Shown: positions 1 to 64,000 of the stretch, in pieces
Numbering within the stretch: the first letter of the stretch is position 1
Layout of the letters: every line of letters starts with the position of its first letter
NCBI GenBank assembly: GCA_964019415.1
Contig: OZ025879.1
Span: 5,809,868-5,873,867 of the forward strand
Origin: Ianthella basta
Lineage: Eukaryota > Porifera > Demospongiae > Verongiida > Ianthellidae
Length of the DNA stretch: 64,000 nt
Direction of reading: 5' to 3'
Translations under genes and position numbers: made by a program
Notes under the pieces: generated by a model
Seen by the model: only the letters and a program-made list of their open reading frames with translations
Database searches by the model: none
Told to the model about the DNA's origin: nothing

Positions 1-2932
1 CAGCTATCAGGAGCAGTTTGATGTGAGTGACTCACTGTATGCTACAGATATGTGCATATTTTATAATTGAAGAATTCCTCCATTTCAGTATGCATGCAGA
101 CATTTGATGCAATTTTCACAACATTGAGCAATTGGTGTGTGGTGCATGTGGCCACTACTTTTCTAGCTCTCATTTGTTCATTTGTCCATGCAGTAAGCTT
201 ATAAATATGCTATAATATTAACTGCATTAGCAGAATGTTCATTGCACAAGTGCACATGAAATACCTACATGGACCATCAATCATGAGCTCCAGCAAATCA
301 CACATTTTCCTCCCAACAATTTAACACTATTCATAGATATTCATTCAGTGTTTATTGTATTTCTCCAGTTGTGCTGAATTCTATGCATATTGTCATTTCT
401 AGGTCAGTTTTATGTTACTAATGAACCGTCAATCACCACACCCACTCTGTAGTCCCTGACCACAATTACACAGGAGAGTGCTAGTGATGAGAGGGTTGAA
501 GAAGACCCTAAGACAATACGCTACCCCAATAGAGCTCCTTGTAAGGATGGTTATTTGTTTTACATTGCTAATTAGCTGCCCCCTGTTGAAAAGTGATGAA
601 TCTAACTATAGTGTTCAATTGGTTATATCTGCAGTTCAGAACAAACACATGTTTGTGTACAATCCAGACTCTGGTAGATCAGTTGTCATTAATGCTTCAC
701 TTGTTGATGTGAGTCCGTACTTTAACTGCATCACTCAGAGACATGTTGCATTAAATTTTGTAAGATGTCATTCTTTGGTACATATTCTTCAAATCTAGAT
801 CTGCTTCTTCATTTACGTGACCCTTGTATATTCACAGGGCTACCATGTACCACGTGCCTTCATAGCTGCCCAGTCACCTATGGAGGCATCACTGAGTGCC
901 TTTTGGACTCTCATTGCTGAGAAGAAGGTGCAGACTATCCTCCTTCTCTGTCAGTTGGTGGAGGACTATCAGGTCAGAGAAAATGCATGTCAGCATTAAC
1001 CTTTCTGGGATTTTCATCTGTATGTTTGTGAGTGCTGTGCATGTGTGTGTGTGTGTGTGTGTATGTGTGTGTGTGTGTGTGTGTGTGTGTGTGTGTGTGT
1101 GTGTGTGTGTGTGTGTGTGTGTGTGTGTGTGTGTGTGTGTGTGTGTGTGTGTGTGTGTGTGTGTGTGTGTGTGTGTGCATGTGTGTGTGTTGTGCATGCG
1201 TGTGTGTGTGTGTGTGTGTGTGCATGCGTGTGTGTGTGTGTGTGTGTGTGTGTGTGTGTGTGTGTGTGTGTGTGTGTGTGTGTGTGTGTGTGTGTGTGTG
1301 TGTGTGTGTGTGTGTGTGTGTGCGTGCGTGCATGTGTGGGTTGTGCTAGCATGCTGTAATTGCCCTGCCATTAGATATGAGTGAATGATTGTTCATAATT
1401 ATGTGATGTGAGCAGTTCCTTCCTCTGCTTCTCTCCAGGATACCTGCTACCAGTTCTGGCCAGCTGCAGAGGGTGGTACACTGAATGTGGGTCAGAGGAA
1501 TGTGACCTTGTTGAAGAAGACGATGAACAGTGACTTTGATCAATACAAGATTACAATTCAAATGGCAAACTACTTGAGTTTAGACAGGGTGGTCCACACA
1601 GTCAAACAGGTGTGCCTACATTGATAGTTCTATAACAAAATATGACAGCTGTGTACATTGCAGCTGTTCCTTCAAGCACAAGGATATGTGTACATGATGG
1701 TAGTGGGATGTAAACAGCAGGAAACACTTTATATGCCAGATTCCTTTTGGCCTACATGTTTCCTTTATGTGTGCTGAATAGAACCTAGCTACTATATAGT
1801 CCACATATTAATTATAATTCATGCAACAAAGTAATATTATACTGTGAATTATGTCCATTGTGTGATTGTCACTGTCCATCAATTAGCGTACTACTTCCAG
1901 AATAAAATGTGTGCCAGGTTTTGCATTTGTTCATAATTATACGTGTCTTGAGTTAAGTTCATATTTGCACTATAGTATACATTTCCACTCACTGCTAACT
2001 ATTCACTCACTTACCCATCCCACACACACCACAGACACAAGATGTCACCTTGCTTCACTACAAGCAGTGGCCAGAGAAGAAGCGTCCCAAGTCAGCCTCC
2101 TTCCTGACCCTGTTCACCTCTGCACAGAAGCTGCAGCAGCCACACTCAGACAGACCCATTGTAGTGGCATGCAAGTGAGCGCGGGATTAAATTATATACG
2201 CAGAGCCTTAAAAATGACCTTGAAGACTGTTTCTCGTGCATACACCTATTCTTGTTGGTATGACAATGTGTCTCACAGTTGTGTCTGCATGTATCACTCT
2301 CTCTCTCTCCATATGCAGCGATGGTCTCGGTCGCACTGGTACATTCATAGCCATTTGGTCTCTGATTGAGCAGATGAAGGCAGAGGGACAGATTGATGTG
2401 GTTGGCACAATCAAGTCCATTAGGACACAGAGACCAGGAGCAGTGCCTCATCTGGTGAGGGTATGAGACATACCAGCTACTGTTTGTAGCAGTATATAAA
2501 TAACATGATTTTCTCTAAACCGTTAAAATCTGATACAACTGTTGTCCAAAGTTTGGGTCATTTGCAGCTGTTTCTTGCACAAAAAGTACACACTCAGTGT
2601 AAGAGTAAACCATTGCAAATTTGCAGAACTTGTGCAAATTTGCACTAGTTGTGGCAGAAATATCTGCAAAATGACCCCAAAGTTTGCACAGCTGTTAGAC
2701 AAGATTTTAATGATTTTTTTATGACCATGTTAAAATAAGATAGGGTATAAGCTCCATTTTTATTGATGCCAAAATAGCTCCTGAGATGTGTATTTTTGTC
2801 CTCCTTTCTTCTTTGGCATGTTTCTTTACAATGCCATCTTCTCTCCCTCTACAGGACCAGTTCATGTACTGCCATGACCTTCTTCTTGAGTATGTGGACT
2901 CATTTGAAGGATACTCCAACTTTAATCAGTAG
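1..2932 (+). CDS. Receptor A, 3' end: D2 phosphatase-like domain of a receptor tyrosine phosphatase
   Basis: Only the last exons of this gene are in the window. Exons by splice sites and reading frame: 1-22 (end of the D1-D2 linker), 453-540, 635-708, 838-972, 1439-1609, 2035-2174, 2319-2454 and 2855-2932 (TAG stop). All have GT donors and AG acceptors, and phases match the equivalent exons of receptor C. The product is a second PTP domain: NASLVD, an IAAQSP stretch, FWTLIAEKKV, then the phosphate loop split across two exons and read as ACNDGLGRTG. The Cys and Arg of CX5R are present, but the usual HCSAG is replaced and the WPD loop reads WPEKKRP. D2 domains of receptor phosphatases are often inactive and regulatory, and that is the likely role here. 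An AATAAA follows at 3014. The ectodomain and D1 lie upstream of the window. Confidence 0.88.
1039..1330. repeat. (TG)n microsatellite in receptor A intron
   Basis: About 290 bases of nearly pure TG, interrupted by a few TGCATG and TTGTGCATGCG steps. It lies in the intron between the LVEDYQ exon and the DTCYQFWP exon. The same intron of receptor C has a short (GT)n at about 47763-47784 and that of the B relic has TG-rich DNA, so this tract expanded from an inherited seed. Long ORFs across it on both strands are artefacts of the dinucleotide. Confidence 0.97.
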
Positions 2933-3013
2933 AATTGATAATATACATGGAAGAAGTCATTTGGATGATTAGTAATAATTGAAAAGACAGTATTTTTGTA
3001 ATATTATGGTATT

Positions 3014-3019
3014 AATAAA
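3014..3019 (+). terminator. Polyadenylation signal of receptor A
   Basis: AATAAA about 80 bases after the receptor A stop codon, in the right place for a poly(A) signal. No canonical AATAAA was seen at the equivalent spot after receptor C or the B relic. Confidence 0.6.
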
Positions 3020-63074: not shown

Positions 63075-63171
63075 ATGTTCACTGACTCAACTGCATATGT
63101 GAACCAAGACCTGGAATGCCGAGTGTCCAGTGGCCCATCAGCATTCATTGGAGTGTATCTAAGGAATGGAG

Positions 63172-63962
63172 GTCAGTTTGTAGTGTCACATTTCTACACT
63201 CCTACAGTACAAATTATCCAGCTTGGGACCCTTTAGATGATACCAATTATTAAACTATTATTATGTTTAGCAGCAGTCCCTGTAATGTGAACATACGAAG
63301 AGCATACAGATACTTTCTAATTCCTGCTATCTCAGACTAATAGAATTTTATGACACGGTGCAATTACACTTTCACTACATCTTGCACAAATTTTTACTAA
63401 TAACACTGCTGGTATTTCCAAACCTTTCAGCTAAATTTTGTACTACATGCACAATTACGAAACTGTTTAAGTTTGTCTGCCTTCCCTAAATATGACCTTA
63501 AGAAGCTTCAGCTCAATTATCACAAGCATTATAAATGTATACATGTCTTTAAATAGAGCTTGAAAGGTCTCTTCATCATACACTTTATTTACGTATCATG
63601 TGATTTTTAGCTACAGTATGAATACAGCACATTCAATAGTAGTTGTTCCAATGCTTAAGATATGTTAGAGAATAAACCTTTCAGACACCCTCTAGATCTG
63701 CTATCTATAACACCTAGAAGAGGATTTAGCATATTCCTAAGGTGTGAACTAGACAAATTGGCTGTCTGGCTGTACGTCAAGATTCCTTTTTATTTTCCAT
63801 TGTACTGTATTAATATATAGACTGCTGATTTAATCTCCCATGCTCTCTACGGTTTACACCCATGCATGCAAGATGATACTAAACTGTAAGAATGAAATAT
63901 AGTGTGAATGAAGGTTACAATATATTATGCGTTGTTGGGGCATACTTCTATTCATGCTGCAG
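63172..63962. other. Receptor D intron 4
   Basis: Paralogous to parts of 34975-37764 in receptor C, without the LINE remnant, the 107-bp palindrome or the poly-G tract. No gene was seen. Confidence 0.55.
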
Positions 63963-64000
63963 TGAGCACAACCCTGCAGCCACCTTCCTCTGTCACACAA

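Follow-up and report, generated by a model that had tools for sequence, protein, structure and literature searches.

The 64,000-nucleotide stretch of Ianthella basta DNA studied here (the window; positions 5809868-5873867 on the plus strand of contig OZ025879.1, C12 below) belongs to a run of related receptor genes that extends over 1.76 Mb. Judging from sequence comparisons, we consider it probable that LAR-like Ig/FN3 receptor genes stand here in a large tandem array, sharing one pool of ectodomains and carrying either of two alternative intracellular modules, and that they make up a two-output receptor family. Across the array, the inside of the receptors is one of two discrete, unrelated modules, and the exon phases leading into both are the same. 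Type I has a membrane helix and a tail bearing YxxV/I motifs, followed by two protein tyrosine phosphatase (PTP) domains, a LAR-like first one (D1) of the active type and an impaired second one (D2). In type II, the membrane helix is Gly-rich and the tail, with its tyrosines, is 40 residues long, without D1. The evidence comes from exons of two units of the window, searched with tblastn and profiles against the window and the whole 209-Mb assembly of 96 contigs.

Stop-to-stop frames and exon searches of the window reveal four partial or complete units, A to D. All lie on the plus strand, as a preliminary description made from the same sequence had it, but a full exon set is visible for two of the four only, B and C. 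The ectodomain exons follow the order Ig, X, F1, F2 and F3; in other units read across the array, the Ig exon is accompanied by X, a domain of ~140 residues, and by between one and three FN3 exons. The shared exon architecture with phase-1 junctions that had been described is borne out, since a phase-1 acceptor and a phase-1 donor can be read at each ectodomain exon of B and C, five per unit, and at the Ig exon of D. In unit B, splice sites and Pfam delimit the Ig exon at 16567..16860 (Ig_3, E 1.2e-5, under the curated cut-off) and the FN3 exons at 18251..18541 (F1; fn3, E 2.1e-9), 20355..20648 (F2; E 2.9e-11) and 20745..21056 (F3; E 1.1e-11), while the X exon with its hypervariable loops, at 17407..17823, has no Pfam match and was recognized from its many genomic copies and their alignment. 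The counterparts in unit C, placed by exon search and splice phases, lie at 28509..28802 (Ig), 34558..34974 (X), 37765..38067 (F1), 39063..39353 (F2) and 39838..40149 (F3). A weak Ig and three FN3 domains by Pfam in B, their likes in C and a membrane segment by hydropathy together form the ectodomain plan of R2A (LAR-type) receptor phosphatases.

Behind this ectodomain, the two units have unrelated ends. Unit C continues with a type I membrane exon (42329..42434, phases 1-2, from hydropathy and sequence) and a tail exon of 135 residues (42547..42950) holding DYSYAAV, ATYAEI and HMYAAV, followed by the D1 exons at 43190..46474 and the D2 exons with the stop codon at 47149..49363, both found by exon search. 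D1 keeps every catalytic element checked, the phosphotyrosine loop NRY, WPD, HCSAGVGRTG and the Q-loop Gln (MIQT), and looks like an intact, active-type domain; the closest solved structures are PTPRS/LAR for D1 and PTPRE/PTPRA for D2. PTP domains usually have a His before the Cys and MVQT in the Q-loop. Because D2 has WPE, an Ala at the place of that His (VVAC-NDGLGRTG) and AVPH instead of MVQT, so that the Q-loop is lost, it is predicted to be impaired, of the pseudo-phosphatase type. Unit B has a different membrane exon, with the Gly-rich helix GGFIGGVLL (21495..21636, phases 1-2), and a tail exon of about 40 residues that bears VYEEP, NPAY and TYE and ends in a stop codon (22113..22236), both read from the sequence. 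Its stop precedes any PTP exon, so that type II departs from the R2A/LAR-type rule in having no PTP end. The D2 exons at 22458..24341, found by exon search, with an in-frame stop in D2a, lie beyond the stop codon of B itself and are therefore read as a relic, B being by its sequence a short-tailed receptor. The tail, active D1 and impaired D2 that the preliminary description had given to C thus stand, as do the separate membrane segment and short tail of B; its account of B as a phosphatase with a dead D2 does not. Each of the two membrane exons begins in phase 1 and ends in phase 2, the phase in which each tail exon starts, and therefore either module fits the same place behind the ectodomain. 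A short frame around 21939-22004 (AVYIDIPHYPK) was dropped as an exon of unit B, its phase fitting neither the membrane nor the tail exon, which fit each other.

The preliminary description had proposed searching the flanking contig for more copies, and these are plentiful. The X exon has 91 matches among 96 candidates genome-wide (84 on C12, three on C4 and two each on C2 and C10), and the Ig exon 79 on C12 and three on C4 before identity drops to 46% or less among the best 150 of 301 candidates. Matches to the WPD exon of D1 number 96, of which 20 on C12 have 78-100% identity and the rest at most 52%; all 28 matches to exon D2d are on C12, five of them weak (44-48%). The 13 matches to the type I tail exon, among 17 candidates, are likewise confined to C12; the type II membrane exon has 58 among 64, with 56 on C12, and the type II tail exon 44 among 54, all in the C12 array. 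Ordered along C12, with 78 X matches after six fragments had been dropped, the exons form 82 groups between 4.387 and 6.147 Mb (the array, 4.39-6.15 Mb). Since a broken unit may count as two groups, which is the case for D, and several membrane exons occur in some groups, the number of units is about 80 and not exactly 82. The units lie on the minus strand at 4.39-4.77 and 5.13-5.15 Mb and on the plus strand at 5.17-6.15 Mb; no array exon matches within the gap of ~0.36 Mb at about 4.77-5.13 Mb. Of the 82 groups, 20 have D1 (type I), all of them also with a D2 match, 47 lack D1 but contain a type II membrane exon, and 15 have neither. Eleven successive groups at 5.488-5.669 Mb alternate between I and II; the genome search with the D1 exon gave no match in most of the minus-strand part or in two further intervals, 5.17-5.41 and 5.92-6.08 Mb. 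The uniform phases would also permit splicing across units, as expected if these were cassettes of one or a few giant genes; given that B and C each have a membrane exon and a stop codon of their own, and that successive Ig exons are mostly ~5-30 kb apart, we find this very improbable. Three more Ig and X exon copies, two with identical scores, and two type II membrane exons lie at C4:9.78-10.06 Mb and represent either recent segmental copies or an assembly duplication.

The features of the two modules recur across the units read. Three YxxV/I motifs stand at like positions in all seven type I tails read; unit U3 yielded no such tail. A pattern search recovered the type II tail in eight of nine slices, and the tyrosines of [VM]YE[ED], NPAYG and TYE are kept in all seven intact copies, the eighth (U2b) being broken. 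The remaining slice, U8, missed the pattern, yet has a tail-like match at C12:5511914, and a minus-strand slice, L053, shows no type II tail within 1 kb. A pairing with kinase-tailed units is not supported: none of the PF07714 kinase matches listed (the best 130 of 2397 candidates) falls within C12:4.39-6.15 Mb.

Sequences of the ectodomain exons do not appear to predict the module behind them. We compared 31 Ig copies and 30 whole X copies, which with one exception each come from the plus strand at 5.39-5.92 Mb, and FN3 exons as counted within the extracted slices. DNA identity within and between types is practically the same in Ig (.8800 and.8823, 28 units), X (.8139 and.8129, 27 units), F1 (.8885 and.8966, 12 units), F2 (.9213 and.9206, nine units) and F3 (.8696 for both, nine units), with shuffle P values of 0.27-0.89 for the five exons. 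Type labels change on the trees about as often as on average after shuffling (Ig 10 vs 9.5, X 9 vs 9.4, F1 3 vs 3.5). Across 29 units, a Mantel test shows no correlation between Ig and X distances (r -0.05, P 0.66), and neither set depends on physical distance (r 0.04 and 0.06). Like identities within and between types, together with uncorrelated Ig and X distances, suggest that ectodomain exons have been exchanged between units and between types, which the uniform 1-1 phases would make possible. Among intracellular exons, compared as a control in seven to eight units each and hence at low power, one of four pairs is significant: D1df-D2bc gives r 0.80 (P 0.020), D1ab-D1df r 0.58 (P 0.079), D2bc-D2de r 0.12 (P 0.32) and tail-D1 r 0.01 (P 0.44). 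In a shared-run test for conversion, the observed runs surpassed those of permuted data at P<0.05 in five of six exons; the test was left unused, as clustered variability alone suffices for such a result. In the type I units at C12:5438455, 5472241 and 5488335, only F1 was found between the X and membrane exons; their Ig exons are among the most divergent compared (71-77% to unit B) and fall, with two others, into one starred tree group.

X has hypervariable loops. An alignment of 28 copies shows 33 invariant positions, including five Cys, a sixth Cys that is nearly invariant, and loops at about 36-43, 70-79 and 82-90 that vary both in residues and in length; X thus reads as a set of hypervariable loops on a conserved frame. 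The pooled ratio of nonsynonymous to synonymous rates (dN/dS) is 0.54-0.86 in the ectodomain exons and 0.62 in the type I tail; in the PTP exons, it is 0.05-0.32 (D1b, D1d, D1e and D1f), 0.17-0.41 (D2b to D2e), 0.54 (D1a) and 0.52 (D2a). When the most variable 22% of codons were picked in half of the copies and measured in the other half, over 60 splits, the variable codons of X had a median dN/dS of 1.44 (5-95% range 1.10-1.73) against 0.41 for the rest, exceeding 1 in all 60, a value that misalignment in the length-variable loops could inflate. F1 shows a weak contrast (1.05 vs 0.77). This held-out design replaced a post hoc choice of loops in X (1.22 vs 0.45). AlphaFold2 models of X based on 28 of the 30 copies have a mean predicted local distance difference test score of 49.8 and a predicted template modelling score of 0.38, no solved chain reached an E value below 0.17 in a profile search, and Pfam returned one chance-level match among 28 members; from C50, W62 and C123, our guess is a degenerate Ig domain. 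The receptors had been characterized as conserved outside and variable inside, and the pattern can now be drawn more sharply, with two discrete modules array-wide, an ectodomain without a signal of type, and diversifying change in the loops of X and not in those of Ig.

Several observations weigh against such a two-output family. Fifteen of the 82 groups have neither module, broken units occur, and the type II tail, with a dN/dS of 0.81 in eight copies (one of them broken), is weakly constrained outside its tyrosines. The Ig, X and F1 trees are weakly resolved, with at most one starred branch each, and the label test has accordingly low power; moreover, one of the ten exon pairs, Ig-F1, shows correlated distances (r 0.48, P 0.011, 12 units), and because of this the exchange seems not to be complete. 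Held-out dN/dS in Ig shows no contrast (0.52 variable vs 0.51 rest), and a per-codon counting test found no excess, with 5 of 142 codons at p<0.05 in X (7.1 expected), 1 of 99 in Ig and none of 100, 92 and 101 in F1, F2 and F3. Read by eye, the 7 type I and 8 type II tails contain no canonical immunoreceptor tyrosine-based inhibitory or activation motif (ITIM or ITAM, by their known consensus), and the six type II membrane exons aligned have no charged membrane residue. Some of this would suit a neutral birth-and-death process, in which unequal crossing-over multiplied a LAR-like phosphatase gene and left the type II units as truncated by-products without a receptor role: D2 exon matches stand behind type II units in five plus-strand groups, as the relic does behind B, and the window holds a broken unit and retroelements besides. 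By-products, however, would hardly account for a type II membrane exon present 56 times and a tail 44 times on C12, for three tyrosines kept in seven of seven intact tails, or for variable X codons with a held-out dN/dS above 1 on a constrained frame, and we regard the neutral explanation as rather improbable.

If the array is indeed a two-output family, our best reading, by analogy, is that it works like paired immune receptors, with a built-in phosphatase as one of the outputs. The variable loops of X would bind a ligand on another cell, and the same or a like ligand would engage type I and type II receptors alike. Src-type kinases would phosphorylate the type II tails, which would then signal by recruiting SH2/PTB adaptors; type I would oppose them by bringing its phosphatase into the same contact and dephosphorylating the tails or the adaptors. 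With both ends acting on one pathway, the balance of kinase and phosphatase would set the response, and exon exchange between units would keep the ectodomains common to both outputs while yielding new combinations. Should the two ends oppose each other in this way, paired-receptor logic would have arisen with a receptor phosphatase replacing the ITIM.

The array is a candidate for a self/non-self or immune recognition system, and its sequence in one assembly does not tell allorecognition, microbial recognition and cell sorting apart. Homophilic adhesion occurs in some R2-type receptor phosphatases and in clustered protocadherins, and a code for cell sorting or adhesion, serving development and reaggregation in place of self/non-self or microbial recognition, would agree with the LAR-like plan of Ig, FN3 and tandem PTP domains, with the closeness of D1 to PTPRS/LAR and with many paralogues whose exchangeable exons suit a combinatorial code. 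Recognition families more typically show loop-focused diversification and partners with short tails, and although these features are not decisive, they make the adhesion code unlikely in our view. Large receptor families that lie in arrays and have variable loops occur commonly in the immune systems of invertebrates, and the same genome has other receptor arrays; recognition of microbes or symbionts, a sub-case of the two-output family whose chances overlap with it, may possibly be the role, and nothing here separates it from allorecognition. Of the latter we can offer a tentative picture: a sponge histocompatibility-type locus of some 80 receptors, with exchanged ectodomains and hypervariable X, in which a damping phosphatase is set against a signalling tyrosine tail and self/non-self is read as a local kinase-phosphatase balance, would be an independently arisen paired system with a receptor phosphatase as its inhibitory half. 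Whatever its role, the array has a known position, a variable domain that is defined and two kinds of signalling end, and as a locus it is open to genotyping, expression studies and assay.

The nearest family by sequence is that of the LAR-type receptor phosphatases (LAR/PTPRF, PTPRS and PTPRD), which share the Ig and FN3 ectodomain, the single membrane helix and the tandem PTP domains, D1 of the active and D2 of the weak type; unlike them, the sponge genes form ~80 clustered units with an X domain and a YxxV/I tail, and 47 of the 82 groups have a different, phosphatase-free end. The nearest logic is that of vertebrate paired immune receptors such as KIR, LILR, SIRP and Ly49. The preliminary description had likewise seen a paired-receptor pattern, and what holds of it are clustered genes with like ectodomains and unlike signalling ends; a textbook activating/inhibitory pair, with an ITIM on one side and a charged membrane residue or ITAM on the other, is not shown by the copies read, where a phosphatase end stands in place of the ITIM. 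The Hydractinia Alr family, with 41 genes in the allorecognition complex according to a 2025 review of invertebrate Ig proteins (PMC11999971), is also a large Ig-superfamily array in an early-branching animal, but the sponge array has FN3, X and PTP domains and is at most a candidate for a histocompatibility locus. Botryllus fester/FcoR, as outlined in another 2025 review (PMC12065747), resemble it in Ig-type receptors, tyrosine motifs, neighbouring paired units and ectodomain diversity, and differ in domain make-up and in the phosphatase part of one sponge receptor type. In the latter review, candidate allorecognition proteins are described as not conserved across sponges, cnidarians and ascidians, and the invertebrate mechanisms as a mystery; the former review links sponge Ig proteins mainly to adhesion and intercellular recognition. 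The words phosphatase, immunoglobulin, fibronectin, tyrosine and receptor are absent from the main text of an Amphimedon graft transcriptome study (PMC5450542), and a literature search, covering no preprints and few subscription papers, had no title on such an array among the papers listed.

The remaining units of the window are incomplete. Unit A is represented by its D2 exons alone (471..2927, plus strand; 74-98% identity to unit C exons by tblastn); the closest Ig and X exons on that side lie upstream of the window, at C12:5799853 and C12:5801517. Unit D, previously called broken, is so: its Ig exon (56556..56849, exon search and splice phases) is readable, while its X exon (58204..63179, exon search) is frame-broken and interrupted by a long terminal repeat (LTR) element with 255-nt LTRs at 58522-58776 and 62815-63069. 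As the LTRs are 98% alike, the insertion is probably recent. The next D1 match after unit D, at C12:5880046, comes ahead of the next Ig, and the phosphatase exons of D are probably those, downstream of the window. A reverse-transcriptase frame on the minus strand (30385-33609) lies inside the Ig-X intron of unit C, and a 17-bp minisatellite at 6162-9724 (209 copies) and 14079-14516 (26 copies) flanks a retroelement frame on the minus strand (9939-13958).

The genome itself looks like that of a demosponge. One contig, C96, is the mitochondrial genome (21,233 bases), with nine internal TGA codons in cox1 (TGA=W), atp9 encoded at C96:4910-5098 and four transfer RNA genes between protein genes in the 4.3 kb examined, and homeodomain matches number 32 among 42 candidates genome-wide. 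Mitochondrial atp9 is diagnostic of demosponges, and together with few homeoboxes it points to a sponge, most likely a demosponge.

Other receptor arrays are present in the assembly. A second large one lies on C8, which has 64 of the 68 Ig matches listed beyond the close family, at 38-46% identity (61 at 6.26-7.65 Mb and three at 0.86-0.91 Mb). The unit read there (L032) has Ig, Ig-like and FN3-like stretches, named by eye, a stalk rich in TPTSSST and, behind a membrane helix, a tail in which VVYAVVDKSKK and MYAVVDKSKK occur; no phosphatase was seen in that frame. A third array, of receptor phosphatases, at C6:4.2-4.7, 5.95-7.1 and 7.61 Mb, accounts for 50 of the 96 D1-exon matches; the genome-wide X exon search gave no match on C6, and the unit read (L031) has a D1 with WPDHGVP and SAGVGRTG, plus a D2. 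On C3, C11 and C16 and at C8:1.46-1.60 Mb, domains resembling tyrosine kinases are densely clustered, each within a single open frame.

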